DNA of 64,000 nt from Kineothrix alysoides (lineage in GTDB: Bacteria > Bacillota > Clostridia > Lachnospirales > Lachnospiraceae): positions 1,798,001 through 1,862,000 of the forward strand of contig NZ_JPNB01000002.1 in the NCBI RefSeq assembly GCF_000732725.1. The letters run 5' to 3'. Below, in pieces: positions 32,085-62,263 of this stretch. Made by a program: the position numbers and the translations under genes. Each line of letters opens with the position of its first letter. The first letter of the stretch is position 1. A model generated the notes under the pieces. It had not been told where the DNA came from, did no database searches, and saw only the letters and a list, made by a program, of their open reading frames with translations.

Positions 32085-33194
32085 ATGGATAATAATATAT
32101 ATGTAACAAGATCTTCTATGCCCCCGTATGAAGAGTACATAGAGATGATAAAACCTCTATGGGAATCTCATAAATTAACCAATATGGGAGAGAATCATAA
32201 AAAATTAGAAAGTGAATTGAAGAAATATCTTGGTGTAAAGAATGTTTCTTTAATGACAAACGGTCACATGGCTTTAGAAATGGCCTTGCAAGCTATGCAT
32301 TTGAGCGGGGAAGTCATAACGACGCCGTTTACATTTGTGTCTACTACGCATGCCATTGTGAGAAATAACTTAACTCCTGTTTTTTGTGATATAAATGAAA
32401 GAGATTTAACTATTGATGTTGATAAAATTGAAGAGTTAATTACTGAAAAAACATCTGCTATTGTTCCGGTACATGTTTACGGGCATATATGTGATGTAGA
32501 GAGAATTGAGCAGATAGCTAAAAAATATAATCTAAAAGTAATCTATGATGCGGCACATGCCTTTGGTGTGACTTATAAAGATAGAAGTATCACTGCATAT
32601 GGGGATGCTTCTATTTTGAGTTTTCATGCTACAAAAGTTTTTAACACAATAGAAGGCGGAGCGGTGGTATATGAAAGTGAAAAATTGGGACATGAATTGT
32701 ATGGATTGAAAAATTTTGGCATTCGCAATGAATTAACGATTGACGGTGTGGGCGCTAATGCAAAAATGGATGAATTTCGTGCAATAATGGGATTATGCAA
32801 TTTGAAATATGTTGATCAAGAGGCAAGAAAAAGAGAGTTGATTGTATCGACTTATCAAAAAGAGCTAAATGGGATAAATGGAATTAGGTATTTTGACAAA
32901 CAGAAAAGTGTAAGGCCTAATTATTCATATTTTCCAATAATAATAGACGAGAACAAATATGGAATTTGCAGAGATGATTTATATGATAGATTAAAAGAAT
33001 ATGGCATTTTTACTCGAAAATATTTTTATCCTTTAGTTAGTAATACAGAATGTTATAGTAAGAATTATTACTATAAAAATCTTGAAATTGCTTCTAATAT
33101 ATCCGAGCGTGTGCTAACGTTACCGCTTTATTCAGAACTATCTATTGAAAATGTAAAAAGAATATGTGGATTAATTAATAATATAGGTGGATAA
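32085..33194 (+). CDS. DegT/DnrJ/EryC1/StrS sugar aminotransferase (VioA-like)
   Basis: 369 residues, fold-type I PLP enzyme. The PLP lysine is Lys184 in 'SFHATKVFNTIEGG', a variant typical of 4-aminotransferases that act on nucleotide-linked 4-keto-6-deoxyhexoses (VioA-like) rather than the 'SKN' type of 3-aminotransferases seen at 49659. 'VIYDAAHAFGV' supplies the Asp that pairs with the PLP nitrogen. It probably makes a dTDP- or similar 4-amino-4,6-dideoxyhexose. No 4,6-dehydratase for dTDP-glucose is in the window. Directly downstream lie pyruvyl transfer, radical SAM and WbqC genes, which may act on the same amino sugar. Confidence 0.82.
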   Translation: MDNNIYVTRSSMPPYEEYIEMIKPLWESHKLTNMGENHKKLESELKKYLGVKNVSLMTNGHMALEMALQAMHLSGEVITTPFTFVSTTHAIVRNNLTPVFCDINERDLTIDVDKIEELITEKTSAIVPVHVYGHICDVERIEQIAKKYNLKVIYDAAHAFGVTYKDRSITAYGDASILSFHATKVFNTIEGGAVVYESEKLGHELYGLKNFGIRNELTIDGVGANAKMDEFRAIMGLCNLKYVDQEARKRELIVSTYQKELNGINGIRYFDKQKSVRPNYSYFPIIIDENKYGICRDDLYDRLKEYGIFTRKYFYPLVSNTECYSKNYYYKNLEIASNISERVLTLPLYSELSIENVKRICGLINNIGG

Positions 33195-33249
33195 AATAAA
33201 ATTAATCATAAATGCCAATGTAACATTACATAATAAGAATATTGTGATT

Positions 33250-33279
33250 TTGTTATGAGATATAAGCTGTGTATATAAA
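33250..33279 (+). promoter_or_regulatory. Candidate promoter before the pyruvyl transferase/radical SAM genes
   Basis: TTGTTA (33250-33255) and TATAAA (33274-33279) are separated by 18 bp in the 208-bp AT-rich gap at 33195-33402, one of the longest gene-free gaps in this region. About 120 bp of leader would precede the ATG at 33403. In such AT-rich DNA chance matches are common. Confidence 0.3.
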
Positions 33280-33402
33280 TCTTATATTATAGATGTAAGT
33301 TTTTAGCGGAATTTTGAAATGGCAAATAGGCAGGCTAGATGGACAAAGGCTCTTTACATTTAAATTTAAAGGGAAATTACAAATAAAGAAAAGGAAGTAA
33401 AA

Positions 33403-34719
33403 ATGAAAAAAGTTTTAGTGACAGGGCTTTGCACTCTCCATTGGGGGCGGTTGCAATTTGGAAACATAGGGAATTATTATATTATAGAACCATTATTTCT
33501 ACAATTACACAGAGTGTTTCCTGATGCGGAGATAGTAACTACATTTCAGATGACTCAAAACTTTATCGAACAGTATAAGATTACAGTGCTACCTATGGAT
33601 TTGTATTATTCATGGAATGGGCATGATGTGCAAGATGCTAAGCAAGAATATGATTTGGTATCCCAACACAAGGAAATTTCCAAGGAAATGTTGACACCTT
33701 ATATGAAATGTATACAGGAAAGTATTCTGGTTATTAATGTTTCGGGAGATATGTGGGGAGATAATGCGGAACATGTTGGACATGAGAGGTTTCTGGTGGA
33801 TTTGTATAAGATGCGGACGGCACAATTATTAGGTAAGAAAACTGTGCTTTTTGCAGGAACGCCCGGACCATTTACAGATGAAATGACAAGAAATTTCGCT
33901 AAAGAAGTATACTCTCATTTTTCGTTAATTATAAATAGAGAGCCGACTTCTACACAAAATATGGGGAAATGGGGATTTGAATCGGCAAGAGTCAAGGACT
34001 TTGCATGTCCGGCATTTCTCTACTACCCGCAATTATTAGAAGAAGATATTGATGTTGAAGATATGGTAGCAAAATTAAGAGGGAACGGCGATAAGATATT
34101 AATTGGTTTTACAATAGGCGGTTTTAATATGCCAGTTGGCCCATATGATATGTGGCCGAGGCATGAGAGCCAATATCGAATTTTCGTGGAAATTATTGAA
34201 GAAATGGTAATTAAATTAAATGCAAGAGTAGTGCTCATATCACATACGAATGGCTTTGAGCTTCCGCCAAATTTTAAATTAGTAAATGGAAGAGATTATC
34301 CAATTTTGAAGCAGCTACAGGAAATTATAATAAAGCGGGGAAATGTTGGAAAAGAAGATATTATATGTCTGGAAGGGCCTTATTTACCAAGGGTTACCAA
34401 AACTATCATTGGGAAGTTTGATATGTTTGTAACAGGAAGAGTTCATGCTTCAGTTGCCGCTATCACACAATATGTACCAACAGTGTTCATAACATATGAA
34501 AAGAGTTTTATTCCCAGTACTAAAATGTATGGTTTTGCCGACCTTGCAGGAATAGGCGAAATGGTATGTGAGCCGGGAGATAAAGATGGAGTGATGGATA
34601 AAGTGATATACTGCTATCATAATATGGAAAGTCTCCGTAAAAGGTTGGAAAAGAGAATTCCGGAAGTGCAGCAGTTGGCAATGGAAGCCTTTAATGAAAT
34701 TCGAAAGCTTGTGGATTGA
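33403..34719 (+). CDS. Polysaccharide pyruvyl transferase family protein
   Basis: 438 residues starting after AAAGGAAG. The N-terminal 'GNIGNYYIIEPLF' loop, central 'VINVSGDMWGDN', 'AGTPGPF' and 'LIINREPTSTQNMGKWGF', and the C-terminal 'DMFVTGRVHASVAAITQYVPTVFI' with its conserved Arg/His (phosphoenolpyruvate-binding pair in this family) all fit the PssM/CsaB-type fold. It normally adds a pyruvate ketal from PEP to a sugar. Some family members have other roles in polysaccharide clusters. It begins the run of radical SAM and WbqC genes, with 1 bp to the next start. Confidence 0.82.
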   Translation: MKKVLVTGLCTLHWGRLQFGNIGNYYIIEPLFLQLHRVFPDAEIVTTFQMTQNFIEQYKITVLPMDLYYSWNGHDVQDAKQEYDLVSQHKEISKEMLTPYMKCIQESILVINVSGDMWGDNAEHVGHERFLVDLYKMRTAQLLGKKTVLFAGTPGPFTDEMTRNFAKEVYSHFSLIINREPTSTQNMGKWGFESARVKDFACPAFLYYPQLLEEDIDVEDMVAKLRGNGDKILIGFTIGGFNMPVGPYDMWPRHESQYRIFVEIIEEMVIKLNARVVLISHTNGFELPPNFKLVNGRDYPILKQLQEIIIKRGNVGKEDIICLEGPYLPRVTKTIIGKFDMFVTGRVHASVAAITQYVPTVFITYEKSFIPSTKMYGFADLAGIGEMVCEPGDKDGVMDKVIYCYHNMESLRKRLEKRIPEVQQLAMEAFNEIRKLVD

Positions 34720-34720
34720 T

Positions 34721-35977
34721 ATGGAAGAATATAGGGTATATCATAAAGAGCCGTCGGCAGATTTACAAAGGCTTTATAATTTTTTGATGAAAATGGACAG
34801 TTACATGGTTCCCCCCTTGTCTGAGAGGGTATGTATCAAAGATTACGCTAAAAAGCTTTCTGAATATGCAGATATTTTTTATGTACAAACCGGAGAAATA
34901 GATTGTGGACATTGCGCAATCTATATGAATCAGAAGGAAGAAAGCTATATCTCTTCTTTTGGAGTATTGCCGGAATATCAAGGCCTAGGGGCAGGGAGTT
35001 TATTAATGCAAAATGTACTTCAAAACGCGACTGGTCAAGGTATAAGAAAGATTAGCTTGGAAGTACACAAGGATAATAAAAAAGCTTTACGCTTGTATAG
35101 TAGTATGGGATTTAAGAGCATGGAGATAGAAGGAGAATTTATTAAAATGGTAAAGGAATTACATGCGCCAATCGATAGTCAGATAAAACTATTGAGCACT
35201 TCGTTGATGGTAACGGAAAGGTGCACGCTCAGATGTAAACTATGCCTTTCTTATGCACCTTATTATGCCTCACCAAAAGTAATGAAAAAGGAAAAAGCGG
35301 AAAGAGTATTGAGAGAATATTTTAACATTATTGGAACTGTAGATAAATTTGCTATAACAGGTGGCGAACCATTAACAAATCCAGATATTATACCGATTTT
35401 AAAGATTATATTCAGCTATAAGAAACAAATTGAAAAGGAAGTCATATTCATTACAAACGGAACGATTAAGATGAAACAAGAATTAATAGAACTGTTTGAG
35501 AATAATAAAGATAAAATTAAAATTATTATTAATAACTATGGTAATGATCTTTCTACAAAGGCACAAGAGTTATATAAAGATTTATGCAATTCCAATTTAG
35601 GGGACAATACTATCTTATATACTGAAGGCAATAGATATGGATGGATTGACTGCAGAGATCATAGCCTGAAACATGAAACTCAAGAGGAAAGAGACAAACA
35701 AGGAATGAAATGTGAGTTTCAAAAAAACAAGAAGTATATAATCAGTGCGGAGGGCGGTTTGTATTCCTGTACCAGATCATATTACAGAATGGTGACAGAA
35801 ATTATTCCCCACAACAAACAGGAATATATTGATTTGTTGGAAGATATTTCATCAGAGGATAAAAAGAAAGCACTAATGCATATGTTAGGGCAGAAAAGCA
35901 GTACATCTTGTGCGTATTGTGAAGGATTATCTGAAAATACGCCTAAATACCCTGCTGCAGAACAGTTTACAGTGTAA
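34721..35977 (+). CDS. GNAT acetyltransferase-radical SAM fusion protein
   Basis: 418 residues from the ATG at 34721, 1 bp after the previous stop. Residues 1-145 are a GNAT domain: 'FGVLPEYQGLGAGSLLM' (80-96) is the acetyl-CoA loop and 'VHKDNKKALRLYSSMGF' its usual partner. Residues 160-418 are a radical SAM domain: Cys168, Cys172 and Cys175 form CxxxCxxC, followed by 'GGEP' at 214-217. Further cysteines near the C-terminus ('MKCEF', 'LYSCTRSYY', 'TSCAYC') are shared with the next protein and may bind an extra iron-sulfur cluster. It probably couples radical chemistry with N- or O-acylation. Substrate unknown. Confidence 0.88.
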   Translation: MEEYRVYHKEPSADLQRLYNFLMKMDSYMVPPLSERVCIKDYAKKLSEYADIFYVQTGEIDCGHCAIYMNQKEESYISSFGVLPEYQGLGAGSLLMQNVLQNATGQGIRKISLEVHKDNKKALRLYSSMGFKSMEIEGEFIKMVKELHAPIDSQIKLLSTSLMVTERCTLRCKLCLSYAPYYASPKVMKKEKAERVLREYFNIIGTVDKFAITGGEPLTNPDIIPILKIIFSYKKQIEKEVIFITNGTIKMKQELIELFENNKDKIKIIINNYGNDLSTKAQELYKDLCNSNLGDNTILYTEGNRYGWIDCRDHSLKHETQEERDKQGMKCEFQKNKKYIISAEGGLYSCTRSYYRMVTEIIPHNKQEYIDLLEDISSEDKKKALMHMLGQKSSTSCAYCEGLSENTPKYPAAEQFTV

Positions 35978-35999
35978 TGAAAACATTAGGAGAAAAAAG

Positions 36000-36809
36000 A
36001 TGCAAAGAACAGATATATGGAGAACTGCATTATGTGTTAGTCAAAGGTGTACGTTAAGGTGCAAACTATGTCTTGCTTTTATACCATACTACGAGAATCC
36101 GAAAGATTTGTCGTTAGCGGAAACAAAAGATGTGTTAAAAAGTTATTTTAGTGTGGTAGACACTGTAAAGACATTTACGGTAACGGGAGGGGAGCCTTTG
36201 ATGAATAAAGAATTGGCGGAGATACTAAAGGTCGTCTATTCTTATAAAAGTCAAATTACGGAAAGTGTCGATTTTGTGACGAATGCAACCTTAGACATTC
36301 CGGAGGATATATTGCAGATATTTGAGAGAAATGCGGATATTACCAGATTGGTATTAAGCGATTATGGTGACTTGTCGCCTAAGATACAAAGTATTTCAGA
36401 GGAATTAGGGAAAAGGAATATTACATACAGAATCTCTAATTTCCATGGAGACGATTTATATTTTGATGGATGGATTGATTTTACAGATCACTCAAAAAAG
36501 ATTGATGACTTGGAGCTTCGCGATGCACAAGGAAGAGAATGCATTCACCGATCAGGAAGATATTTTGTAATCAATGATGGTGAACTGCATTCGTGCTCTC
36601 GCTCTTATTGGAGAATGGGGCAGGAAACTATCCCTCGAATAAAAGGTGAATACATTGATTTAACGAGTTCTTCTATTACTATAGAAGAGAAACGAAAAGA
36701 CTTATCTCATATGTTTTCGCAGGCAAGCAGCACTTCTTGCGGCTATTGTGTGGGGCTACGTAATAATGTAAAAAGGCATTATCCGGCAGAACAGCTTCCG
36801 ATAAAGTAA
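36000..36809 (+). CDS. Radical SAM protein (paralogue of the preceding radical SAM domain)
   Basis: 269 residues from the ATG at 36000, which has AGGAGAAAA directly upstream; an in-frame ATG at 35910 inside the previous gene lacks one. Cys17, Cys21 and Cys24 form CxxxCxxC in 'QRCTLRCKLCLAF', and 'GGEP' is at 63-66. It aligns over its whole length with the C-terminal domain of the preceding protein, including the late 'RECIH', 'HSCSRSYWRM' and 'STSCGYC' cysteines, so the two arose by duplication and may form a heterodimer or act in sequence. It lacks the GNAT part. Reaction unknown. Confidence 0.86.
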   Translation: MQRTDIWRTALCVSQRCTLRCKLCLAFIPYYENPKDLSLAETKDVLKSYFSVVDTVKTFTVTGGEPLMNKELAEILKVVYSYKSQITESVDFVTNATLDIPEDILQIFERNADITRLVLSDYGDLSPKIQSISEELGKRNITYRISNFHGDDLYFDGWIDFTDHSKKIDDLELRDAQGRECIHRSGRYFVINDGELHSCSRSYWRMGQETIPRIKGEYIDLTSSSITIEEKRKDLSHMFSQASSTSCGYCVGLRNNVKRHYPAEQLPIK

Positions 36810-36837
36810 TATGACAATGAAGAAAGGGCGTTAACAC

Positions 36838-37548
36838 GTGAAATTAGGAATAATGCAGCCATATTTTTTTCCGTACATAGGATATTTTTCAATAATTGAA
36901 AATACAGATAAATTTATATTTTTTGATACGCCACAATATATTCACCATGGATGGGTAAATAGAAATAGGGTATTAAATAGTAAAAATGAAGTGAGTTATA
37001 TTACCGTTCCTATAAAAAAGGCGGAGCAGACAATGCCAATTATGAATATTGAAATTGATAACTCGAAAAAATGGAAAGAAAAGATATGGGGACTCTTAAC
37101 TGTATATAAAAAAAAGGCTCCGTACTATAATTTGGTATTAGAATTACTTCATAATATTTTAGATAGGGAATATCTAAAATTATCAGATTTAAACATTGTG
37201 TCCACACAAAATGTTTGTGATTATCTTGGAATCAGTACGTCGCTTGATGTTTTTTCCAAAATGAATATGCCTTTGCCGGAAATAAAAAAACCCGATGAAT
37301 GGGCTCTTTATATAACAGAAAAAGAAGGTTATTCCACTTATGTAAATCCGCCTGGCGGAAAGGATTTTTTTGTGCGTGAAAAATATAGTAACAAGAATAT
37401 AGAACTAGAATTCTTGCAGATAAATTTTAATGAATATATTCAAAAAATTGGCCGCTTTGAAAAAGGACTTTCAATTATTGACGTTATGATGTTTTGTAGT
37501 AAAAGTGAAATTATGGATATGCTGCATGATTATGAGATTATAAATTGA
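36838..37548 (+). CDS. WbqC family protein
   Basis: 236 residues with a GTG start (AAAGGG about 11 bp upstream). 'KLGIMQPYFFPYIGYFSII' at the N-terminus, 'FFDTPQYIHHGWVNRNRVL', 'YITVPIKKA' and the late 'INPPGGKDF'-type segment ('VNPPGGKDF') are the markers of the WbqC family. Family members are found in O-antigen and capsule clusters, often beside amino-sugar aminotransferases; the biochemical function is not firmly known to me. Here it closes the aminotransferase / pyruvyl transferase / radical SAM run, which points to modification of an amino sugar. Confidence 0.87.
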   Translation: MKLGIMQPYFFPYIGYFSIIENTDKFIFFDTPQYIHHGWVNRNRVLNSKNEVSYITVPIKKAEQTMPIMNIEIDNSKKWKEKIWGLLTVYKKKAPYYNLVLELLHNILDREYLKLSDLNIVSTQNVCDYLGISTSLDVFSKMNMPLPEIKKPDEWALYITEKEGYSTYVNPPGGKDFFVREKYSNKNIELEFLQINFNEYIQKIGRFEKGLSIIDVMMFCSKSEIMDMLHDYEIIN

Positions 37549-37567: not shown

Positions 37568-38377
37568 ATGAGTGCTTTAAAAAGAATAGTATACTTTTTG
37601 GCGTCTATATTCAAGGAACGAAAAATATTATTTGAATTAGCTAAGAATGATTTTAAATCCAGATTTACTAATTCCTTGCTAGGAATTGCATGGGCGTTTT
37701 TGTTGCCGGTTGTAATTATTTTGGTTTTATGGTTTGTCTTTGAGGTTGGTTTTAGGTCTACTCCGGTTGAAAATGTACCATTTATTTTGTGGTATATTCC
37801 TGCATTCTTAGCATGGAATTTTTTCTCGGAAGCATTTTCTTCGGGCGCGAATTGTTTATTTGACTATTATTATTTGGTTAAAAATATGAAGTTTAGAGTA
37901 AGCATACTGCCTTTTATAAAGATAATTTCTGCTAGTTTCATACATTTATTTTTTGTTGGATTTATTTTTGTAATGTATCTTTTGTATGGAAGAATGCCGC
38001 GAATAAATAATATACAAGTACTTTATTATTATATATGTGTATTTTTTTATGTTTTAGGTTTGATATGGCTGACTTCTGCGTTGTCAGTTTTCTCAAGAGA
38101 TGTATTAAATATTATTACACTCATTATACAGGTAGGATTTTGGGCTACGCCTTTGATTTGGGATCCAAGTACCATGCCTCAAAACGTACAGCTTATTGTG
38201 AAGTTAAATCCCATGTACTATATATGCTGTGGGTATAGGGAAGCTTTTTGCACGGATATTTGGTTTTGGCAGCATCCTTATCAGACCTTGTATTTTTGGG
38301 CAATAGTCTTAGTGCAATTAATAATAGGTGCATATACCTTTAAGAAATTGCGTCCACAGTTCGCAGATATGCTATAA
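37568..38377 (+). CDS. wzm: ABC-2 type polysaccharide export permease
   Basis: 269 residues with six predicted membrane helices and the N-terminal amphipathic 'LAKNDFKSRFTNSLLGIAWAFLLPV' that marks the Wzm/TagG/KpsM class. It starts 19 bp after the WbqC gene and 14 bp before its partner ATPase. With Wzt it would export a finished lipid-linked polysaccharide across the membrane. Such systems do not need a Wzy polymerase, so the polymerase-like genes elsewhere in the window probably serve another glycan. Confidence 0.88.
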   Translation: MSALKRIVYFLASIFKERKILFELAKNDFKSRFTNSLLGIAWAFLLPVVIILVLWFVFEVGFRSTPVENVPFILWYIPAFLAWNFFSEAFSSGANCLFDYYYLVKNMKFRVSILPFIKIISASFIHLFFVGFIFVMYLLYGRMPRINNIQVLYYYICVFFYVLGLIWLTSALSVFSRDVLNIITLIIQVGFWATPLIWDPSTMPQNVQLIVKLNPMYYICCGYREAFCTDIWFWQHPYQTLYFWAIVLVQLIIGAYTFKKLRPQFADML

Positions 38378-38391
38378 AAGGAGTTGAGTTA

Positions 38392-39723
38392 ATGGACAAA
38401 TTAGCAATTAAGATAGAGAATTTATCAAAAGTTTATAAGCTATATGAGAACAATAAATCAAGAATTGTAGAAGGCCTGTTTCCTTTTGCGAAATGCCGTC
38501 ATAAAGATTTTTATGCGTTGCAAGATCTTTCTTTTGAAATAGAAAAAGGAGAAATTGTCGGGATAATAGGAAAGAATGGTAGTGGTAAATCTACCCTGTT
38601 AAAAATAATAACTGGAGTATTGAGTCAATCAGGGGGAAGTGTTGAAGTTAAAGGTAGAATTTCCGCACTTTTAGAACTGGGAGCAGGATTTAACCCTGAA
38701 TATACAGGAATTGAAAATATATATTTAAATGGAACCCTTAATGGAATTACGAGAGAAGAAATGTCAAAAAGAATATATGATATTGCTGACTTTGCAGATA
38801 TTGGTGATTTTATTTATCAGCCAGTTAAGAATTATTCAAGTGGTATGTTTGTAAGATTAGCTTTTGCTGTAGCTGTTAATGTAGAACCGGATATACTGAT
38901 TGTAGATGAGGCATTAGCAGTAGGAGATGCCGCGTTTCAGGCAAAATGTATGGCAAGGATGAACCAAATTATGAAAGGCGGTGCAACCGTTCTATTTGTG
39001 ACACACGATATGAACACAGTAAAGAGATTATGTCAGAGATGTATCTATCTTGAAAATGGGAAAAAGATAATGGAAGGAAATGCGGAAGAACTGGCGGATG
39101 TGTATTTAAAGAGAATAAGAGAGAATATGAACATAGAACATCTAAAAGTGATGGACGTGAGTAAGGAAGAAGAAGGTATTATTGATAAAACAGAAAGAGA
39201 TGCGCCGATATCAACGAAAGAATGTAGCAAAGATTTATATAATGTGGAGTTAGAAAAAAGAATAGCACCATTTCGAGAAGGGACGGGAACAGTTAAGCTA
39301 ATTAACTTTGAATTAACGGATATAAATGATGTGGTAATAAAGAGCGCTGAATTTAATCAGAAGTTAAAAATAAAAATGTGTATAAAATTTTTTCAAGACG
39401 CTGAAGTGGGTATTGGCTATCATATAAGAGATGATAAGAATATGGAAATTATCGGCAGTGGCACAACAAGAGAATTAGGACACCAAATTAGAGGAAAAGA
39501 AGGAGAAATATATTTAGTTGAGTTTTCAACAAGAGTGCCGCTTGTCGAAGGAATATACAATATTTCGACAGTAGTTTCTACTCCTATTATATTAAATAGG
39601 AGTGCCTTATTTGTTGACTATGCAGAAAATGTAGAGGTATTTGAGGTAGAAGAGTGTAAAGACGCCAAATTGTGGGATAAAGTGTATGTTCCTAACGAAG
39701 TAGAGATAAACAAATTAGTGTGA
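38392..39723 (+). CDS. wzt: ABC polysaccharide export ATPase with C-terminal carbohydrate-binding domain
   Basis: 443 residues. Residues 1-245 are the ATPase: Walker A 'GKNGSGKST' at 60-68, signature region 'YSSGM' at 148-152, Walker B Asp172-Glu173 in 'ILIVDEALAVGD'. A linker (about 246-295) joins it to a C-terminal beta-sandwich of the Wzt-C type (about 296-435, 'GTGTVKLINFELTD', 'IKMCIKFFQDAEVGIGYHIRDD'). In E. coli O8/O9a-like systems this domain recognises the modified non-reducing end of the finished chain. The methyltransferase gene immediately downstream fits a capping role. Confidence 0.9.
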   Translation: MDKLAIKIENLSKVYKLYENNKSRIVEGLFPFAKCRHKDFYALQDLSFEIEKGEIVGIIGKNGSGKSTLLKIITGVLSQSGGSVEVKGRISALLELGAGFNPEYTGIENIYLNGTLNGITREEMSKRIYDIADFADIGDFIYQPVKNYSSGMFVRLAFAVAVNVEPDILIVDEALAVGDAAFQAKCMARMNQIMKGGATVLFVTHDMNTVKRLCQRCIYLENGKKIMEGNAEELADVYLKRIRENMNIEHLKVMDVSKEEEGIIDKTERDAPISTKECSKDLYNVELEKRIAPFREGTGTVKLINFELTDINDVVIKSAEFNQKLKIKMCIKFFQDAEVGIGYHIRDDKNMEIIGSGTTRELGHQIRGKEGEIYLVEFSTRVPLVEGIYNISTVVSTPIILNRSALFVDYAENVEVFEVEECKDAKLWDKVYVPNEVEINKLV

Positions 39724-39735: not shown

Positions 39736-40893
39736 ATGAAGAAGTGTATTATTTGTAAAAATAATATCGAAAAGTACGTGGCAATAGAAAAAAAATATTT
39801 AGAACTCCCGTTGAAGTATGGAAGTAAACAAAAATCCAGATCTGAGACATTAAATGCCGATGAATATTCTTGTCCATTTTGCTATGCTCTGGATAGAGAT
39901 AGATTATGTGCGTTATTTTTGCAAGAGTTACTAGAAAAAACAAAGACACTAGAAATAAATATTTTAGATATTGCGCCTTCAGGAGCAATAAAGAAATTTA
40001 TTTACTCTAACTCAGGCAAGGATACGAATTATTATACGGCAGATTTATATATGGAAGATGTCGATTATAGATTAGATGTCCAAGACATGAAAGATATTAG
40101 TAATGAAAGCTTTCACCTAGTTATATGTTGCCATGTTTTGGAACACGTAAAAGACGATAAATTGGCAATGAAGGAAATTTATCGAATTTTAGATAGGAAT
40201 GGTTTGGCAATAATTCTTGTCCCGCTTGATTTAAATCAGACAGAAACAGATGAAGAGTGGGGACTTACGGAAGCGGAAAATTGGAGAAGGTTTGGTCAGG
40301 GAGATCATGTAAGAAAATATGCAAAAATAGATTTTGTTAATCGATTGAAGGAGGTGGGGTTTAAAGTAAATGAAATGAGGAAAGCAGATTTTGGCGAAGA
40401 AAATTATAGACAGAATGCTTTAACTGATACATCAACACTATATATTGTAGATAAAAATTTAAATAATTTTTCAAAGAAAAGAGAGCTTATTCAGAATTTT
40501 GTTGATAACTATAAACAAGATTTTGATCAAATGAACAGAATAAAGGGGGAAATTAATTATTGGATTGATTGCTGCAAAGAACATAATGGCCAAATACTTA
40601 TTTGGGGATGGGGTTATTTTGTTTGTGAAAACAGCAGGTATACAAAAGCAAAAATAGTTTTTCAAAACCATTTAAGTATGGAAGAAAAAGTATTTGCTTT
40701 TGATTTACAAAAACGCGAAGACATACAAACTACATTTGGAGAAAACGGGAATAATTATTATTATTCGGGAATTGCTTTGAGTTATGCTTTGAATATTTTC
40801 GAAAATGGAACATATAATATATTTTTAAAATTGAGAAATTCAGAAAAAGAAAATTTATTATTAATTTATAAAGAATTTCATGTAAGTAATTGA
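39736..40893 (+). CDS. SAM-dependent methyltransferase with zinc-ribbon-like N-terminus and extra C-terminal domain
   Basis: 385 residues. Two CxxC pairs (Cys4/Cys7 and Cys46/Cys49) probably bind zinc. The class I methyltransferase core runs about 70-235: motif I is the variant 'ILDIAPSGAIKKF', then 'YYTADLYME' and 'FHLVICCHVLEHVKDD' followed by 'AMKEIYRILDRNG'. The C-terminal 110 residues ('ILIWGWGYFVCENS', 'FAFDLQKREDIQ', 'GTYNIFLKLRNS') look like a beta-sandwich of a type often appended to Firmicute surface-polymer enzymes. It sits 12 bp after wzt; methylating the chain end before export is a reasonable inference. Confidence 0.8.
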   Translation: MKKCIICKNNIEKYVAIEKKYLELPLKYGSKQKSRSETLNADEYSCPFCYALDRDRLCALFLQELLEKTKTLEINILDIAPSGAIKKFIYSNSGKDTNYYTADLYMEDVDYRLDVQDMKDISNESFHLVICCHVLEHVKDDKLAMKEIYRILDRNGLAIILVPLDLNQTETDEEWGLTEAENWRRFGQGDHVRKYAKIDFVNRLKEVGFKVNEMRKADFGEENYRQNALTDTSTLYIVDKNLNNFSKKRELIQNFVDNYKQDFDQMNRIKGEINYWIDCCKEHNGQILIWGWGYFVCENSRYTKAKIVFQNHLSMEEKVFAFDLQKREDIQTTFGENGNNYYYSGIALSYALNIFENGTYNIFLKLRNSEKENLLLIYKEFHVSN

Positions 40894-47716: not shown

Positions 47717-48136
47717 ATGGAAAAACAGAGCGTACAAATGTTGGAATTCCCACAAAAAGGCGATGGGAGAGGCCAATTGGTTATAGTAGAGGGGGGAGTA
47801 GATATCCCCTTTGACATCAAGCGAATATTTTATATATATGGTTCGGATTCAGAAGTAGTAAGAGGGCAGCATGCCAATAAAAGAACAGAATTTGTATTAA
47901 TAAATGTTTCCGGACAAAGCAAGGTCCGCGTGAAGGATGGAAGAGGAAATGAGGCTATTTTTGCTTTGAACCGTCCACATACAGGTATTTATCTTCCAAA
48001 GATGGTATGGAAAGATATGTATGACTTTAGTGAGGGTTCTGTGCTCCTTTGCCTTGCCAGCGAACATTATGATACGGAGGAATATATACGTGATTATGAT
48101 AAGTTTGTAGAGCTTATAAGTGGAGGGCAGGGGTAA
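47717..48136 (+). CDS. fdtA: dTDP-4-keto-6-deoxyhexose 3,4-ketoisomerase (FdtA/QdtA family)
   Basis: 139 residues, a small cupin. 'QMLEFPQKGDGRGQLVIVEG', 'KRIFYIYG', 'RGQHANKRTEFVLINVSG' (active-site His) and 'PKMVWKDMYDFSEGSVLLCLASEHYD' are the family blocks. It moves the keto group of dTDP-6-deoxyhexos-4-ulose from C4 to C3, ready for the aminotransferase at 49659. FdtA and QdtA differ in C4 outcome, which cannot be decided here. It overlaps the next gene by 1 bp (TAATG). Confidence 0.88.
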   Translation: MEKQSVQMLEFPQKGDGRGQLVIVEGGVDIPFDIKRIFYIYGSDSEVVRGQHANKRTEFVLINVSGQSKVRVKDGRGNEAIFALNRPHTGIYLPKMVWKDMYDFSEGSVLLCLASEHYDTEEYIRDYDKFVELISGGQG

Positions 48137-49071
48137 TGAAGTTATCAATAGTGATACCAGTCTATTATAATGAAGATAACCTGCAGCCATTATACGATGA
48201 TATGAAGCAGAAAATTATAGATGTGATCAATTATGATTACGAGATTGTGCTTGTGAATGATGGCTCCAAGGATAAGAGCTATGAGGTGATGAAGAAGCTG
48301 GTAAAAGTGGATTCTAATATTAAGATAATTAGCCTATCCAGAAACTTCGGCTCTCACGCCGCCATCTTATGCGGACTTTCTAAGTGTACAGGCGACTGTG
48401 CTGTTGTTAAGGCGGCGGATTTACAGGAACCTACTGAATTGATTCTTGAAATGGTAGAAAGCTGGAACAAAGGGAATAATGTAGTTCTCGCAGTAAGAAG
48501 TGGAAGAGAGGAAAAGAAGAGTCAGACACTTTTCTCCAATTTGTATTACAATCTGGTAAGAAAGACATCTTTGCCTGCTATGCCAAAAGGTGGATTTGAT
48601 GTATATCTACTAGACAGAAAAGTAATCAATGTGTTAATGGCATTGGACGAGAGGAATAGCGCATTGACGGGGCAAATCCTATGGAGTGGTTTCAAGACAG
48701 AGAAGGTTTATTATACTCGTTTGGCACGTGAGATAGGGACCAGCCGCTGGACATTTAAAAAGAAGATAAGATTAGTAGCGGATACTTTGTTTAGCTTTTC
48801 AACTCTGCCAATTACTTTAGTCGCCGGGGTTGGAACCGTATCATTTTTCGGTGCTTTAGCTTGGGCAATATTCGTGTTGACTTTTAAGTTACTAGGATTA
48901 ATAGAGGTTGATGGTTGGACTACCCTATTTATATTCAATTTATTCAGCTTTGGAATCATCATGCTGACTATGGGAATTTTAGGCAGCTATTTATGGAGAA
49001 CCTTTGATGCTTCACGAAACAGACCGCCATATATTATAGAAGAAGAGAACGAGCCGGGGGGAGAGGATTAA
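48136..49071 (+). CDS. GT2 polyprenyl-phosphate sugar synthase-like (GtrB/DPM1 type)
   Basis: 311 residues. 'KLSIVIPVYYNEDNLQPLYDDM', 'EIVLVNDGSKDKS', 'SLSRNFGSHAAILCGL' and 'ADLQEP' form the donor core; two C-terminal helices (about 225-250 and 262-285) anchor it. The type transfers a sugar from a nucleotide to polyprenyl phosphate, or acts as a membrane GT2. It lies inside the dTDP-3-amino sugar gene set, so the amino sugar itself may be its substrate. A second such enzyme lies at 59596. The DNA from here to about 50.8 kb is less AT-rich than upstream. Confidence 0.8.
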   Translation: MKLSIVIPVYYNEDNLQPLYDDMKQKIIDVINYDYEIVLVNDGSKDKSYEVMKKLVKVDSNIKIISLSRNFGSHAAILCGLSKCTGDCAVVKAADLQEPTELILEMVESWNKGNNVVLAVRSGREEKKSQTLFSNLYYNLVRKTSLPAMPKGGFDVYLLDRKVINVLMALDERNSALTGQILWSGFKTEKVYYTRLAREIGTSRWTFKKKIRLVADTLFSFSTLPITLVAGVGTVSFFGALAWAIFVLTFKLLGLIEVDGWTTLFIFNLFSFGIIMLTMGILGSYLWRTFDASRNRPPYIIEEENEPGGED

Positions 49072-49074
49072 AAA

Positions 49075-49623
49075 ATGAAGCTGCGTGAGTTGAAAAGGGA
49101 AGATATGGCAGGTATGCTGGAATGGATGACGGATCCATATATACGGCAGAATTTCCGATTTGGTTCGGATAAAATAGATGAGAAAAGTGTTCTGAGCTTT
49201 ATTCAAAATGCAGGGAGCGCTTTACGTGCACCAATAGAAGGAAATACCATTCATTACGCCATTGCAGATGAAGAGAGCGATGAATATCTTGGAACGATTA
49301 GCTTGAAAGCGATAAGTATAGCCAATAAGCATGCGGAATATGCAATAAGTCTTAGAAGGAAAGCACAACGAAAAGGAATTGCAATAGAAGCGACAAAAGA
49401 AATACTTCGACTTGCATTTGTTAAATATAATCTTGAAAGAGTATATCTGAATGTATTTTCAGATAATATCCCAGCGATTAAGTTATACGAAAAATGCGGC
49501 CTTGTATTGGAAGGTGAGTTCCGTAATCACTTAGTCGTGGAAGGCGAGTATAAATCATTGAAGTGGTACTCGATATTGAGGACAGAATACCAGGGTAAGT
49601 ATGGAATACCTATAAATAATTAG
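49075..49623 (+). CDS. GNAT N-acetyltransferase (RimJ/RimL-like), probable amino-sugar acetylation
   Basis: 182 residues, GAGGATTAAAAA site before the ATG. 'LRELKREDMAGMLEWMTDPYI', 'EYLGTISLKAI', 'AEYAISLRRKAQRKGIAIEATKEILRLAF' (acetyl-CoA loop) and 'VFSDNIPAIKLYEKCGLVLEGEFR' are typical. Located between the FdtA-like isomerase and the FdtB-like transaminase, it most likely acetylates the 3-amino group to give the dTDP-3-acetamido-3,6-dideoxyhexose. The classical FdtC is a hexapeptide enzyme, so a GNAT here would be a different solution for the same step. The role rests on context. Confidence 0.78.
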   Translation: MKLRELKREDMAGMLEWMTDPYIRQNFRFGSDKIDEKSVLSFIQNAGSALRAPIEGNTIHYAIADEESDEYLGTISLKAISIANKHAEYAISLRRKAQRKGIAIEATKEILRLAFVKYNLERVYLNVFSDNIPAIKLYEKCGLVLEGEFRNHLVVEGEYKSLKWYSILRTEYQGKYGIPINN

Positions 49624-49658
49624 AAACAGGAACCAGCAAGAGAAAGTGAGACAAGTTC

Positions 49659-50762
49659 ATGAAAATAATGCCCAATCGTTTAGATAAAGGTTTTGGAATG
49701 TATCAGAAGGAATTCGAGCAAAAAGCTTTAGAGGTATTACGCTCCGGGTGGTATGTCCTTGGAAACGAGGTAAAACAATTCGAAGAGGAATTTGCAGCAT
49801 ATACAAGAACAAAACATTGTGTGGGACTTGCCAGCGGACTGGATGCTCTCTGGATTGCGTTCCGGGTGTTGGGTATTGGTGCGGGAGATGAAGTAATCGT
49901 ACAGGGGAATACTTATATAGCAAGTGTCATGGGAATTACAATGAATGGGGCGACTCCTGTTTTTGTAGAGCCGGACGAATATTACAACATAGATGTATCC
50001 AAGATAGAAGAGAAAATTACAGAAAAAACAAAGGCGATTCTTGTTGTGCATCTCTATGGACAGGCCTCTGACATGAAAACAATTATGAAGTTGGTACAGA
50101 AGTATAATCTGCGTCTTGTAGAGGACTGTGCCCAATCACATGGAGCTTGTTTTGATGGAAAGATGACAGGAACATTCGGTGATATAGGCTGCTTTTCCTT
50201 TTATCCATCAAAGAATCTGGGTGCCTTCGGCGATGCAGGGGCAATTGTAACGAATGATAATAAAATAGCAGAAGATTTTAGAATATTCCGGAATTATGGA
50301 AGTGAGAAGAGATACTATAATAAGCTGGTCGGAACAAACTCAAGATTAGATGAATTGCAGGCGGGTTTATTAAGAGTACGACTTTCACATATGGAAGAGT
50401 TAACGGAAGAAAGAATCAAGCTGTGCAATATATACTTGAATGAGATTCACAATGAACAAATAGTCCTGCCAACTGTACGTAAAGGAGCTACGACGGTATG
50501 GCATCAGTTTGTGATCCGCTGCCGTAATAGACAGGAGTTGATTGATTATTTGAATGCGAAAGAGATAGGGACTATCATTCACTATCCTATTCCACCGCAT
50601 CTATCGGAAGCATACTCTTATTTGGGCCTGAATAAAGGCAGCATGTCGGTAACGGAGAGATATGCAGAAGAGGTACTGTCGATTCCGTTATACAATGGAA
50701 TGACACTGGAAGAACAGAAGTATGTGATTAAGGCAATTAATACATTTCAGCTTAGTGACTGA
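49659..50762 (+). CDS. fdtB: dTDP-3-amino-3,6-dideoxyhexose transaminase (FdtB/QdtB family)
   Basis: 367 residues, fold-type I aminotransferase. PLP lysine Lys185 in 'FYPSKNLGAFGDAGA'; 'LVEDCAQSHGA' gives the pyridine-binding Asp. The 'GNTYIASVMGIT' loop and the 'HYPIPPHLSEAYSYLG' segment are those of FdtB/QdtB-type enzymes. It would aminate the 3-keto product of the isomerase at 47717. The weak ribosome site makes the Met4 codon at 49668 a possible alternative start. Confidence 0.88.
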   Translation: MKIMPNRLDKGFGMYQKEFEQKALEVLRSGWYVLGNEVKQFEEEFAAYTRTKHCVGLASGLDALWIAFRVLGIGAGDEVIVQGNTYIASVMGITMNGATPVFVEPDEYYNIDVSKIEEKITEKTKAILVVHLYGQASDMKTIMKLVQKYNLRLVEDCAQSHGACFDGKMTGTFGDIGCFSFYPSKNLGAFGDAGAIVTNDNKIAEDFRIFRNYGSEKRYYNKLVGTNSRLDELQAGLLRVRLSHMEELTEERIKLCNIYLNEIHNEQIVLPTVRKGATTVWHQFVIRCRNRQELIDYLNAKEIGTIIHYPIPPHLSEAYSYLGLNKGSMSVTERYAEEVLSIPLYNGMTLEEQKYVIKAINTFQLSD

Positions 50763-53729: not shown

Positions 53730-53766
53730 CGTAACCCAATAATGCCTTATGAGGAGAGACGAGTGG

Positions 53767-54549
53767 ATGAAAGTAGTAATTTTAGCGGGTGGGTACGGAA
53801 CCAGAATTAGCGAAGAGAGCCATTTAAAACCAAAGCCAATGATAGAGATTGGTGAAAAGCCGATTTTATGGCATATCATGAAAGAATATTCTCATTATGG
53901 GTTTAATGAATTTATTATCTGTTGTGGCTATAAGCAGCATGTTATAAAAGAATGGTTTGCGGATTATTATTTGTATAATTCTGATGTTACATTTGATTTT
54001 AGTAAAAATAATGAAATGGCTGTACATAACAATGTTGCGGAACCTTGGAAAGTAACTATAGTGGATACAGGGCTGAATACTATGACAGGCGGCAGAATAA
54101 AGAGAATACAGCAGTATATCGGTAATGAGACATTTATGCTTACTTATGGAGATGCTGTTTCCGATGTAAATATAAAGAAACTTGTTGATTTTCATAAAGA
54201 GCATAAAAAAACAGCAACATTAACAGCGGTTAATATAGGACAGCGATTTGGTGTTCTTGGAATTGATGCGGCGAATGACAGTATTAACTCGTTTCGTGAA
54301 AAGGAAAGTACGGATGGTGCAAGGATTAATGCAGGCTACATGGTTTTAGAACCCGCCATTTTTGATTTTATTGAAGGCGATACAATTGTATTCGAAAAGG
54401 AACCATTGGAGACGGTTGCGCAAAGCGGACAGTTAAAAGCATATAAACATAATGGCTTTTGGCAATGCATGGATACAAAGCGTGAGAAAGAAGAGCTTGA
54501 GGAATTGTGGGAATCCGGACAAGCACCCTGGAAAGTGTGGGATAAATAA
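53767..54549 (+). CDS. rfbF: Glucose-1-phosphate cytidylyltransferase
   Basis: 260 residues from ATG 53767, with GAGGAGA ending 10 bp upstream; an ATG at 53749 would add six residues. The nucleotidyltransferase loop 'GGYGTRISEESHLKPKPM' (8-25) includes Arg13 and Lys23, and 'FMLTYGDAVSDV' is the metal-binding Asp strand. It makes CDP-glucose from CTP and glucose-1-phosphate, the first step of the CDP-3,6-dideoxyhexose pathway. It overlaps rfbG by 1 bp (TAATG), and rfbF-rfbG-rfbH are in the canonical order. Confidence 0.93.
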   Translation: MKVVILAGGYGTRISEESHLKPKPMIEIGEKPILWHIMKEYSHYGFNEFIICCGYKQHVIKEWFADYYLYNSDVTFDFSKNNEMAVHNNVAEPWKVTIVDTGLNTMTGGRIKRIQQYIGNETFMLTYGDAVSDVNIKKLVDFHKEHKKTATLTAVNIGQRFGVLGIDAANDSINSFREKESTDGARINAGYMVLEPAIFDFIEGDTIVFEKEPLETVAQSGQLKAYKHNGFWQCMDTKREKEELEELWESGQAPWKVWDK

Positions 54550-55601
54550 TGCTAAATCTGAATTTTTATAAGAACAAGAAAATTTTAATTACGGGCCATA
54601 CCGGGTTCAAGGGAGCGTGGCTTTGTGAAATTTTAGCATCAGCAGGTGCGCATGTCTATGGTTTTTCTTTGGAGCCGCCAACAAGCCCCAGTTTGTTTAA
54701 TATAGCTAAAGTCGGAGATGATATGGAGTCCTTTTTAGGGGATATAAGGGATTTTGAACAAATATCGTCCATATTTAAGAAGGTACAGCCGGAGATTGTA
54801 TTTCATTTGGCAGCACAGCCAATTGTGAGGGAAAGCTATAAGAATCCTGTTTATACATATGAAACTAATGTTATGGGAACGGTAAATTTATTAGAATGTG
54901 TCAGGATAAATGATTGTGTGAAATCGGTGTTAAATGTCACGACAGATAAGGTTTACGAGAACAAGGAATGGGAATGGGGATATCGTGAATATGAACCATT
55001 GGATGGTTATGACCCATATTCGAACAGTAAGTCATGCTCAGAGCTGGTTACTCATAGCTATAAGAAATCATTTTTTTTAGATGGCAGGGTGAGAATATCA
55101 ACGGCACGAGCCGGTAATGTTATCGGAGGAGGGGACTTTGCAGATGATAGGATTATTCCTGATTGTGTGAGAGCAGCAGCAAAGGGAGAGCCGATTGTAG
55201 TTAGGAACCCTTATTCAGTTAGACCATATCAGCATGTGCTGGAGCCTTTGTATGCTTATCTTATGATTGCACAAAGACAATATGAAGATAAAGCATACGA
55301 GGGATATTATAATGTTGGGCCTGATGAGACGGATTGTATTGCGACAGGTGAGTTGGTTGGAAAATTTTGTGATATATATGGTGAAGGTGCCGCATGGATT
55401 AATAAATGCGAAGAGGGTCCTCACGAGGCCAATTTCTTAAAACTTGATTGTTCAAAACTTAAAAATGTTTTTTCCTGGAAGCCACATTGGAATATTGACA
55501 AAGCAATAGAAAAGACGGTTGAATGGACAAAATGTTATTTAAGCGGCGACGATGTAAGCAATTGTATGAAAAAACAAATAAAAGAATTCTTTATTTCGTG
55601 A
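54549..55601 (+). CDS. rfbG: CDP-glucose 4,6-dehydratase
   Basis: 350 residues, extended SDR. 'TGHTGFKGAW' at 15-24 binds NAD; 'TTDKVYE' and 'YDPYSNSK' (Tyr157 and Lys161) are the active-site segments characteristic of CDP-glucose dehydratases. It converts CDP-glucose to CDP-4-keto-6-deoxyglucose. The late 'GPHEANFLKLDCSKL' segment is also specific to this group and supports assignment over dTDP-glucose dehydratase. The reading frame is intact and the length usual. Confidence 0.93.
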   Translation: MLNLNFYKNKKILITGHTGFKGAWLCEILASAGAHVYGFSLEPPTSPSLFNIAKVGDDMESFLGDIRDFEQISSIFKKVQPEIVFHLAAQPIVRESYKNPVYTYETNVMGTVNLLECVRINDCVKSVLNVTTDKVYENKEWEWGYREYEPLDGYDPYSNSKSCSELVTHSYKKSFFLDGRVRISTARAGNVIGGGDFADDRIIPDCVRAAAKGEPIVVRNPYSVRPYQHVLEPLYAYLMIAQRQYEDKAYEGYYNVGPDETDCIATGELVGKFCDIYGEGAAWINKCEEGPHEANFLKLDCSKLKNVFSWKPHWNIDKAIEKTVEWTKCYLSGDDVSNCMKKQIKEFFIS

Positions 55602-55619
55602 AATAAGGTGGGCAAAAAA

Positions 55620-56957
55620 ATGTTTGAAAATAAGAATGAAAAGCAGGCAAGGCAAGAGATCTTAGGCTTGGTACAGGAATACTGTGAAAGGTATCATAAT
55701 AATACCGAATATAAAGAAGGAAACAGGATTCCCTATGCGAAACGAGTTTATGATCACAAAGAAATGGTAAATTTGGTAGACAGTTCGTTGGAATTCTGGC
55801 TGACTTCCGGAAGATATACAGAAGAGTTTGAACGAAAATTTTCTGAATATCTTGGAGTAAAATACTGTTCCCTGGTTAATTCGGGTTCTTCCGCGAATTT
55901 AAATGCGTTTATGGCACTGACCTCCTCTTTGTTAGGAGAACGTCAGATAAAAAGAGGGGACGAAGTAATAACTGTAGCAGCAGGCTTTCCTACTACGGTA
56001 TCGCCTGTTATACAGTTTGGGGCAGTTCCGGTATTTGTAGATGTTACAATTCCCCAATATAATATTGATGTTACGATGCTGGAGGAAGCGTTGTCGGATA
56101 AGACGAAGGCGGTTATGATTGCCCATACGCTGGGAAATCCGTTTGACTTGAGCGCAGTCAAGAGTTTTTGTGATAAGCATAATCTTTGGCTGGTAGAAGA
56201 TAATTGTGATGCCTTAGGGTCAAAATATCTAATGGATGGCGAGGAGAAATTTACTGGTACCATTGGAGATATCGGCACCTCAAGTTTTTATCCGCCACAT
56301 CATATGACGATGGGTGAAGGTGGAGCTGTATATACGGATAATCCATTATTGAATAAAATAATCCGTTCTTTCAGGGATTGGGGGCGGGATTGCGTTTGCC
56401 CATCAGGTGTAGATAATCTTTGTCAGCATCGTTTTGACAAACAGTATGGCGAGTTGCCAGTAGGGTATGATCATAAATACGTGTATTCGCATTTTGGTTA
56501 CAATTTGAAAGCAACTGATATGCAGGCTGCGATTGGCTGTGCACAATTAGAAAAATTCCCTTCTTTTGTCGAGCGAAGAAAGCACAATTTTAACAGGCTT
56601 AAAAGTGCTTTGCTAAGTGTTTCGGATAAATTAATCCTGCCCGAGCCATGTAAAGATTCTAATCCAAGTTGGTTTGGCTTTTTAATCACATGTAAAGAGG
56701 GTGTGGAAAGAAATCGGGTAGTACAATATATTGAAGACAAAGGTGTTCAAACGCGGATGTTATTTGCAGGTAATTTAATTAAGCATCCATGCTTTGATAA
56801 TATGCGGAATACAGGGGAAGGATATCGTGTCGCCGGTAATCTCGAGGTCACGGACAAAATAATGAAGGATACTTTTTGGGTAGGAGTCTATCCTGGTATG
56901 ACGGATGAGATGATTGATTATATGGCAAAAGTGATTTGCGAGGCTGCTAATATATAA
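55620..56957 (+). CDS. rfbH: CDP-4-keto-6-deoxyglucose 3-dehydratase (E1)
   Basis: 445 residues from ATG 55620 (AAGGTGGG upstream; GTG 55608 is the alternative). An aminotransferase-fold enzyme using PMP: where a transaminase has 'PSKN' it has 'PPHHMTMGEGG', so His227 replaces the lysine. 'GRDCVCPSGVDNLC' gives the C-x-C-x7-C part of the [2Fe-2S] site, with another Cys about 61 residues earlier ('EDNCDALG'). It removes the C3 hydroxyl to give the 3,6-dideoxy-4-ketohexose intermediate. The reductase partner (E3) usually needed is not encoded nearby. Confidence 0.94.
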   Translation: MFENKNEKQARQEILGLVQEYCERYHNNTEYKEGNRIPYAKRVYDHKEMVNLVDSSLEFWLTSGRYTEEFERKFSEYLGVKYCSLVNSGSSANLNAFMALTSSLLGERQIKRGDEVITVAAGFPTTVSPVIQFGAVPVFVDVTIPQYNIDVTMLEEALSDKTKAVMIAHTLGNPFDLSAVKSFCDKHNLWLVEDNCDALGSKYLMDGEEKFTGTIGDIGTSSFYPPHHMTMGEGGAVYTDNPLLNKIIRSFRDWGRDCVCPSGVDNLCQHRFDKQYGELPVGYDHKYVYSHFGYNLKATDMQAAIGCAQLEKFPSFVERRKHNFNRLKSALLSVSDKLILPEPCKDSNPSWFGFLITCKEGVERNRVVQYIEDKGVQTRMLFAGNLIKHPCFDNMRNTGEGYRVAGNLEVTDKIMKDTFWVGVYPGMTDEMIDYMAKVICEAANI

Positions 56958-56973
56958 AGAAAGTTGGTCGAAG

Positions 56974-58680: not shown

Positions 58681-58682
58681 TT

Positions 58683-59609
58683 ATGGTAAAGAAGGTTTGT
58701 GTAACAGGCGCTACGGGTTTTTTGGCAGTGCCGCTTATAAAGTTATGTGTAGCAAAAGGATGTAAAGTATATGCCGTTGTCAGGCCGGCTTCAGTCAACA
58801 TAAACCGCTTGGAGGGTTTGAAGAATGTTTTCATAGTAGAGTGTGAAATGCAGGATTATAATTTATTAGCGGATAAGGTTCATGATAATATTGATATGTT
58901 TTTCCATCTTTCCTGGGAAGGTATAAGGGGAAAGCATAGAGACGATGAAGCATTACAATATAAAAATTATAGTAATTCAATTACTGTGCTAAAAGAAGCG
59001 ATAAAGTTGAATACAAAGGTCTTTGTGGGAGTGGGTTCTCAAGCGGAATATGGCAGTATATTGGGTGAAATGCAAGAGAGCATGGAAGTGAATCCGGATA
59101 CCGAATATGGAAGATTTAAGTGTATGTTATGTGATGATGGCCAAAAAATTTCAGAACAAAATAATATTCGTTTTATTTGGGGGAGAATATTTAGTGCATA
59201 CGGTATACACGATACTCCCGGCAGTTTAATATCAAGCTGTATTGAAAAAATGAGGAAAAATGAAGCTATTGAATTGCTGCAAGGAGAGCAGGACTGGAAT
59301 TATATATATGTTGCTGATGTAGCGGAGGCGCTGTGGCGGTTGGGTATTAAACAAGAGGCTAAGGGAATATTCAACGTTGCATCAAAAGATAATCGAAAAT
59401 TAAAAGATTATATTATGGAATTGAAGGAAATTTTAGGCTCTGAAAGTTGTTTGAAATATGAAGCTTTGGATAGACATGATGCTTTGCGGGGAATAAGACC
59501 TAATATTGATAAATTGGTATCTACTCTGGAGTGGCTGCCAGGTACAAGCTTTAAAGCTGGCATTTTACGATGTATGGAAGGAATAAATATTGCAAATGAA
59601 AACGATTAG
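58683..59609 (+). CDS. NAD(P)-dependent SDR sugar reductase (YerF-like candidate)
   Basis: 308 residues. 'VCVTGATGFLAVPLI' at the N-terminus is the cofactor loop; 'FVGVGSQAEYG' and 'EYGRFK' (Tyr with Lys four later) form the active site; 'GEQDWNYIYVADVAEAL' is a typical extended-SDR substrate segment. It lies 2 bp after the YerE-like gene and overlaps the next by 14 bp. In a yersiniose-type pathway it would reduce the side-chain ketone left by the two-carbon addition. Alternatives are a 4-ketoreductase of the abequose/paratose synthase type. Confidence 0.75.
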   Translation: MVKKVCVTGATGFLAVPLIKLCVAKGCKVYAVVRPASVNINRLEGLKNVFIVECEMQDYNLLADKVHDNIDMFFHLSWEGIRGKHRDDEALQYKNYSNSITVLKEAIKLNTKVFVGVGSQAEYGSILGEMQESMEVNPDTEYGRFKCMLCDDGQKISEQNNIRFIWGRIFSAYGIHDTPGSLISSCIEKMRKNEAIELLQGEQDWNYIYVADVAEALWRLGIKQEAKGIFNVASKDNRKLKDYIMELKEILGSESCLKYEALDRHDALRGIRPNIDKLVSTLEWLPGTSFKAGILRCMEGINIANEND

Positions 59610-61145: not shown

Positions 61146-62201
<1,056 letters not shown>

Positions 62202-62222
62202 ACTAACAAGATAAAATTGGAG

Positions 62223-62252
62223 AAGGGAATTCTGTATGAGAATTCCCTTTTA
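62223..62252 (+). terminator. Intrinsic terminator-like hairpin between gmd and rmd
   Basis: A perfect 10-bp inverted repeat (AAGGGAATTC at 62223-62232 and its complement at 62240-62249) with a 7-base loop ends in a short T run. It lies only 12 bp before the ATG of the next gene, which has no clear ribosome site, so it may act as a leaky terminator or as a leader hairpin. Confidence 0.65.
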
Positions 62253-62263
62253 TGGTATAAAAG

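Follow-up and report, generated by a model that had tools for sequence, protein, structure and literature searches.

Gene content of the locus

The 64,000-nucleotide stretch of the Kineothrix alysoides genome analyzed here as a whole (the window) carries a block of five consecutive genes on the forward strand, which appear to form a sugar-tailoring cassette with two radical S-adenosylmethionine (SAM) domains. All five open reading frames were found in order, and the families named for them in an earlier note on this DNA were confirmed by Pfam. The first encodes a DegT/DnrJ/EryC1/StrS sugar aminotransferase of 369 amino acids (32085..33194; DegT, 1.1e-97). It is followed by genes for a polysaccharide pyruvyl-transferase-like protein of a rare subfamily (33403..34719; 438 amino acids; PS_pyruv_trans, 3.8e-19), a GNAT-radical SAM fusion (34694..35977; 427 amino acids, or 418 from the ATG at 34721; GNAT and Radical_SAM profiles), a stand-alone radical SAM protein (36000..36809; 269 amino acids; Radical_SAM, 2.4e-8), and a WbqC-family protein (36838..37548; 236 amino acids; WbqC, 3.8e-66). 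The spacings, earlier described as short throughout, are short among the last four genes, but 208 bp (33195..33402) separate the aminotransferase gene from the rest of the block.

Every family assignment passed the Pfam cut-off, with 328 against 19.8 bits for DegT_DnrJ_EryC1 (PF01041), 70.1 against 25.3 for PS_pyruv_trans (PF04230), 61.4 against 20.7 for GNAT (PF00583), 47.8 and 34.8 against 29.5 for the two radical SAM proteins (PF04055), and 223.5 against 21.3 for WbqC (PF08889). Two narrower models stayed below their curated cut-offs, namely CsaB (TIGR03609) for the pyruvyl-transferase-like protein (45.9 against 213.1) and PseH (TIGR03585) for the fusion (29.5 against 93.1).

Two start codons were revised. 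The stand-alone radical SAM open reading frame was first called from a GTG at 35910 to its end at 36809, and the ATG at 36000, with an AGGAG stretch in front of it, is most likely the actual start. Counted from the first ATG of the fusion (34694), the CxxxCxxC and GGEP motifs fall at residues 177-184 and 223-226, whereas the numbering given previously (168-175 and 214-217) applies if the protein starts at codon 10, the ATG at 34721. This codon, one base past the stop of the pyruvyl-transferase-like gene, is favoured as the start because the stand-alone GNAT of another genome with these genes, G127, begins at that residue.

A recurring cassette with optional radical SAM genes

Five overlapping genome sets, of 299 (family), 398 (phylum), 16 (genus), 10, and 250 genomes, were searched together with the IMG/VR viral contigs. 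The pyruvyl-transferase-like subfamily occurred in 3, 2, 2, 1, and 3 genomes of these sets, respectively, which amounts to five bacterial genomes in all, and in a single IMG/VR contig (L116, IMGVR_UViG_3300033182_001497); plasmid records and phage records gave no match. The window protein is 65, 50, 46, and 42% identical to the copies of G127, G196, G508, and the viral contig, respectively. WbqC and an N-acyltransferase are encoded within a few genes of the pyruvyl-transferase-like gene in all six loci, and a DegT gene, short and diverged in the viral contig, was likewise found in all six. The cassette genes thus recur together in five genomes and one viral contig, which bears out the co-occurrence that the earlier note had made one of the tests of its proposal. 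The recurring core consists of WbqC, DegT, the pyruvyl-transferase-like protein, and the N-acyltransferase, while the radical SAM genes are an optional part. Their cassette clade is present in three of the six loci, and the copy number per locus is 0, 1, 2, or 3.

Gene order varies. In the window, the order is DegT, pyruvyl-transferase-like, GNAT-radical SAM, radical SAM, and WbqC, so that WbqC closes the run as previously described; over all six loci it belongs to the recurring core. The order is pyruvyl-transferase-like, WbqC, GNAT, radical SAM, GT2, and DegT in G127, and pyruvyl-transferase-like, formyltransferase, WbqC, GT2-like, and DegT in G508. In G196, another radical SAM gene with a weak SPASM match precedes DegT, WbqC, pyruvyl-transferase-like, and GNAT. 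The congener G693 carries DegT, WbqC, a pyruvyl-transferase-like protein fused to a formyltransferase, and three radical SAM genes in a row. On the viral contig, a short DegT-like gene is followed by methyltransferase, pyruvyl-transferase-like, WbqC, and GNAT genes (5389-9130). Several gene labels come from BLAST comparison with seed proteins that had been named by means of annotated records and family searches, so that an unlabelled gene is one without a seed match and may still have a function. A small protein encoded before the G693 cassette (L181, 14825-15328) had no Pfam match at 0.001; its sequence reads as containing a Rossmann-like stretch.

The radical SAM proteins

The two radical SAM domains of the window are 43% identical, and both keep the same four late cysteines, as had been noticed before. 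In the stand-alone protein, the cysteines are C17/C21/C24 and C181/C199/C247/C250. The arrangement C-x3-C-x2-C followed by C-x17or18-C-x46or47-C-x2-C is kept in six of six cassette radical SAM proteins. Neither window protein matched the SPASM domain (PF13186) at E up to 0.01, and the late cysteines (C-x17or18-C ... C-x2-C) match the twitch layout in all six proteins by spacing pattern alone. In BtrN, the radical SAM dehydrogenase of butirosin biosynthesis, the auxiliary cysteines are 169, 187, 232, and 235, and the spacing comparison with the cassette proteins rests on these positions. The twitch layout has one cysteine before and one after a hairpin and two near the C-terminus (PMC6231123), and BtrN has C16/C20/C23, close to C17/C21/C24 here, and four cysteines binding one auxiliary cluster (PMC9012708). 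One radical-cluster motif with four late cysteines is a BtrN-like twitch layout, and for this reason a radical oxidation of a sugar is the best guess for the reaction.

All six radical SAM proteins of the cassettes form one group (95/95) in a 16-row tree, which was midpoint-rooted for drawing only; five of the rows outside this group are long-branched and uncertain in placement. G693b is the partner of the fused domain (98/99), and the G127 protein is that of the stand-alone one (95/97). These pairings suggest that the window copies are older paralogues rather than a recent duplication and that the fusion is derived. Close relatives are few: with the pair as query, 8 of 299 family genomes gave a match at E 1e-20, two of them strong (the genome of the window itself and G127) and six weak, and 3 of 398 phylum genomes gave one at 1e-25. 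No relative of the clade was found in viral contigs and phage records.

Same-family genomes carry distant relatives (22-37% identity) in other glycan loci, as does a Brachyspira plasmid, and many of these proteins have a Rossmann-like stretch at the N-terminus. Many of those in L023, L028, L030, L031, L032, and L033 have about 370-430 amino acids and an extra N-terminal part, by reading different from the cassette proteins; two or three lie in each fetched stretch, adjacent in some loci. The pyruvyl-transferase-like subfamily was not found in these family genomes in the 299-genome search. The Brachyspira hyodysenteriae plasmid pBHWA1 (L037, 7270-16105) encodes one distant relative and four annotated radical SAM/SPASM genes, near ATP-grasp amidoligase and rhamnan genes.

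The GNAT-radical SAM fusion

Both domains of the fusion lie in a single open frame of 427 amino acids, as the earlier note had described. GNAT was matched at residues 31-140 (1.2e-16) and Radical_SAM at residues 173-285 (2.4e-12), with the radical SAM core starting at about residue 167 and the late cysteines at 340, 359, 406, and 409. The reading frame is clean, although an assembly error might in principle have created the fusion. As a conserved feature, the fusion did not hold up. It was seen only in the window, and as far as the searches reach its parts are separate proteins in the relatives: GNAT stands alone in all three other GNAT cassettes (G127, G196, and viral contig L116), and G693b, to which the fused radical SAM domain is most closely related, is likewise a separate protein. 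The earlier note had named such a split among the outcomes that would speak against its proposal. When the whole fused protein was the query, 2 of 16 genus genomes matched at 1e-15, namely that of the window and G693, and a scan of genome contigs returned a single match to residues 69-145, covering the GNAT part only. The fusion looks like a local event.

Since one radical SAM copy is joined to GNAT, the two domains are suggested to act on the same substrate. In G693, the formyltransferase is fused to the pyruvyl-transferase-like protein, so that a second joined pair links these steps. That the fused GNAT installs the product of the radical SAM enzyme, as first proposed, receives only indirect support from the fusion here and from the adjacency of the two genes in G127.

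Aminotransferase, acyl slot, and the likely sugar

The window DegT is 55% identical to its G127 counterpart. Its nearest NCBIfam model is DesI (TIGR04427), described as a dTDP-4-dehydro-6-deoxyglucose aminotransferase, and the DegT proteins of G127, G196, and G693 also score best on this model, below its cut-off. In G508, DegT scores 565 bits on the model for dTDP-4-amino-4,6-dideoxygalactose transaminase, above its curated cut-off of 375, and the window genome has a gene for an RmlB-type dTDP-glucose 4,6-dehydratase (486.8 bits) some 86 kb downstream. Because of these three observations, a dTDP-4-amino-4,6-dideoxyhexose is the likeliest substrate of the cassette.

The acyl slot is occupied by GNAT in four loci and by Formyl_trans_N in two. 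Two stretches, N-x-H...LP and G-x-T-x-H, are retained in both cassette formyltransferases, and we take their N-x-H and G-x-T-x-H parts to be the catalytic motifs. The main argument that GNAT probably acylates the amino group introduced by DegT is this swap of GNAT and formyltransferase. The comparison of loci points to an unusual acylated amino sugar, in agreement with the original proposal of an unusual amino sugar or acyl group.

WbqC

WbqC is widespread, and its genes are also common in IMG/VR contigs (L088-L167), where 24 of 46 non-redundant loci have DegT immediately before it. The AlphaFold2 model of the window protein (predicted local distance difference test score, pLDDT, 94.1) bears a tentative resemblance to class I aminoacyl-tRNA synthetases. 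A search against PDB sequences gave nothing convincing. The HIGH motif of these synthetases is not present in WbqC. Its place is presumably at positions 13-16, as read from the aligned ranges, and these positions are mostly Y/W-x-G-Y/F in two sets of 47 and 26 aligned sequences. Histidine occurs at position 13 in 1 of 47 and 0 of 26 sequences and at position 16 in 0 of 47 and 0 of 26.

Proposed pathway and alternatives

The block is read as a cassette of variable make-up that tailors one sugar of a surface glycan, an interpretation with about an even chance of being correct in the following steps. DegT would form a 4-amino sugar by transaminating a nucleotide-linked 4-keto-6-deoxyhexose, with dTDP-4-keto-6-deoxyglucose as the likeliest candidate, as its nearest families suggest. 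GNAT would then acetylate that amino group, and formyltransferase would formylate it in the sister cassettes, as the swap implies. WbqC and the pyruvyl-transferase-like protein, which co-occur constantly, would be the partners of this sugar. Where present, one to three twitch-type radical SAM proteins would abstract a hydrogen from a carbon of the acylated amino sugar. By the cysteine layout, the carbon would be oxidized in a dehydrogenation as in BtrN, or alternatively epimerized. Substrate, product, and chemistry are all predicted from sequence. A bolder form, in which tandem twitch radical SAM enzymes oxidize or epimerize an N-acylated 4-amino-6-deoxyhexose and WbqC is a degenerate class I synthetase-fold enzyme with a new sugar chemistry, is offered tentatively and falls clearly short of probable.

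Several observations weigh against this pathway. The window DegT misses the DesI cut-off (296.2 against 650 bits), and the DegT of the viral contig, with 215 amino acids, gives a partial match. The four cassette GNATs are 23-37% alike, hardly above their 21-29% identity to GNATs of two other loci, so that a common descent of the acyl slot is not established. The radical SAM clade is absent from three of six cassettes, and the six cassettes are a small sample with two from one genus. BtrN was not among the PDB sequence matches of the window radical SAM proteins at E up to 10, and likeness to BtrN in mechanism is therefore kept as a guess and not as membership. Sequence networks do not readily predict fold or function in the SPASM/twitch group (PMC6231123), and a radical SAM structure model built from two sequences was poor (pLDDT 51.6) and was not used.

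The radical SAM proteins might instead be epimerases or dehydratases, net redox-neutral, with each paralogue acting on a different carbon. Copy numbers of 1, 2, and 3 and at least two separate tree classes fit such serial reactions, and SPASM/twitch enzymes vary in chemistry (PMC6231123); the four-cysteine auxiliary site, however, resembles that of BtrN, an oxidizing enzyme (PMC9012708), and this alternative is considered rather unlikely. An action on a protein, peptide, or acyl group, such as the maturation of a partner enzyme, is unlikely. It would agree with the weak PDB sequence matches, which include the peptide-modifying YydG and SkfB beside MoaA, and with core cassettes that lack the radical SAM clade, but no precursor-peptide gene was recognized beside the radical SAM genes among open reading frames of at least 80-90 amino acids, all three clade-bearing loci hold the sugar cassette, and one radical SAM domain is fused to GNAT.

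Wzt_C domains read chain ends, and the cassette of the window genome might make a chain-end cap read by the adjacent exporter, a very unlikely explanation. A Wzm/Wzt-type ABC exporter (37568..39723, forward strand) begins with Wzm 19 bp past WbqC, its ATPase has a Wzt_C domain (55.8 bits, cut-off 30.4), and ABC-transporter genes lie near DegT-WbqC in Bernardetia and Hymenobacter. As a general explanation it was rejected, since the sequence fetched from around the cassettes in G127 (74 kb), G196 (60 kb), G693 (60 kb), and G508 (20 kb) contained no matching Wzm/Wzt pair. Equally improbable is that WbqC joins an acid to the amino group as an ATP-dependent amide ligase, as in MshC, with GNAT acting elsewhere; the histidines at the HIGH place are absent, and a separate acyltransferase lies beside WbqC in six of six cassettes. 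A DesII-type deamination was rejected, as DesII was not among the best 25 NCBIfam hits of either window radical SAM protein.

Neighboring genes and other loci of the window

The exporter is followed by a gene for a methyltransferase-domain protein, identified by Pfam (39736..40893, forward strand). Genes of this kind occur close to four other cassettes as well, identified by family tests in G196 and L116, by a BLAST label in G508, and by sequence reading alone in G127. Further downstream, an FdtA/QdtA-like isomerase (38% identical to an annotated one), a GT2-like gene, a GNAT with 61.8 bits on the PseH model, below its cut-off, and a second DegT are encoded at 47717-50762, perhaps a separate 3-amino-sugar pathway. 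Genes at 53749-59609 read as an RfbF/G/H-like CDP-glucose 3,6-dideoxysugar route, followed by a thiamine-diphosphate enzyme and a reductase, and perhaps make a branched sugar. GDP-mannose 4,6-dehydratase-like and reductase-like genes, identified by reading, occur at 61170-63205 and may make GDP-rhamnose.

Relation to known systems and significance

Viosamine, perosamine, and Fuc4NAc-type pathways combine a 4-aminotransferase with an N-acetyl- or N-formyltransferase. The cassette resembles them in a DegT near the C4 families and an acyl- or formyltransferase, and is set apart by the addition of WbqC, of a distinct pyruvyl-transferase-like protein, and, in three of the loci, of twitch-type radical SAM proteins. 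In desosamine biosynthesis, the TDP-4-amino-sugar aminotransferase DesI stands beside the radical SAM enzyme DesII, and the window likewise has an aminotransferase beside a radical SAM enzyme; unlike that pair, the cassette has no DesII match within the hits given above and adds an acyltransferase and WbqC. BtrN acts on an amino-cyclitol, a point of likeness to the proposed reaction. The cassette proteins, for which the PDB search gave no sequence match to it, differ in their place in surface-glycan loci, in forming tandems of up to three copies, and in being fused to GNAT in one case. To our knowledge, sugar-acting radical SAM enzymes are known mostly from antibiotic pathways (BtrN and DesII). 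Judged by titles and abstract openings, the literature searches returned no functional paper on radical SAM enzymes in such glycan loci, on the use of tandem twitch radical SAM enzymes on such a surface-polysaccharide sugar, or on WbqC; the word 'WbqC' occurs in an exopolysaccharide-locus paper (PMC5532660).

The block is an amino-sugar cassette of uncommon, modular build in which radical SAM enzymes are optional, and the wider cassette with its WbqC-DegT partnership is a better finding than the fusion. Its tentatively synthetase-like model and its frequent place behind DegT give WbqC a first testable role in amino-sugar making. The natural variants, with zero to three radical SAM copies and an acetyl- or formyltransferase, are ready-made comparisons. 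The cassette probably makes an unusual acylated amino sugar for the surface coat, and in its compactness it offers a testable case of radical SAM sugar chemistry in surface glycans.

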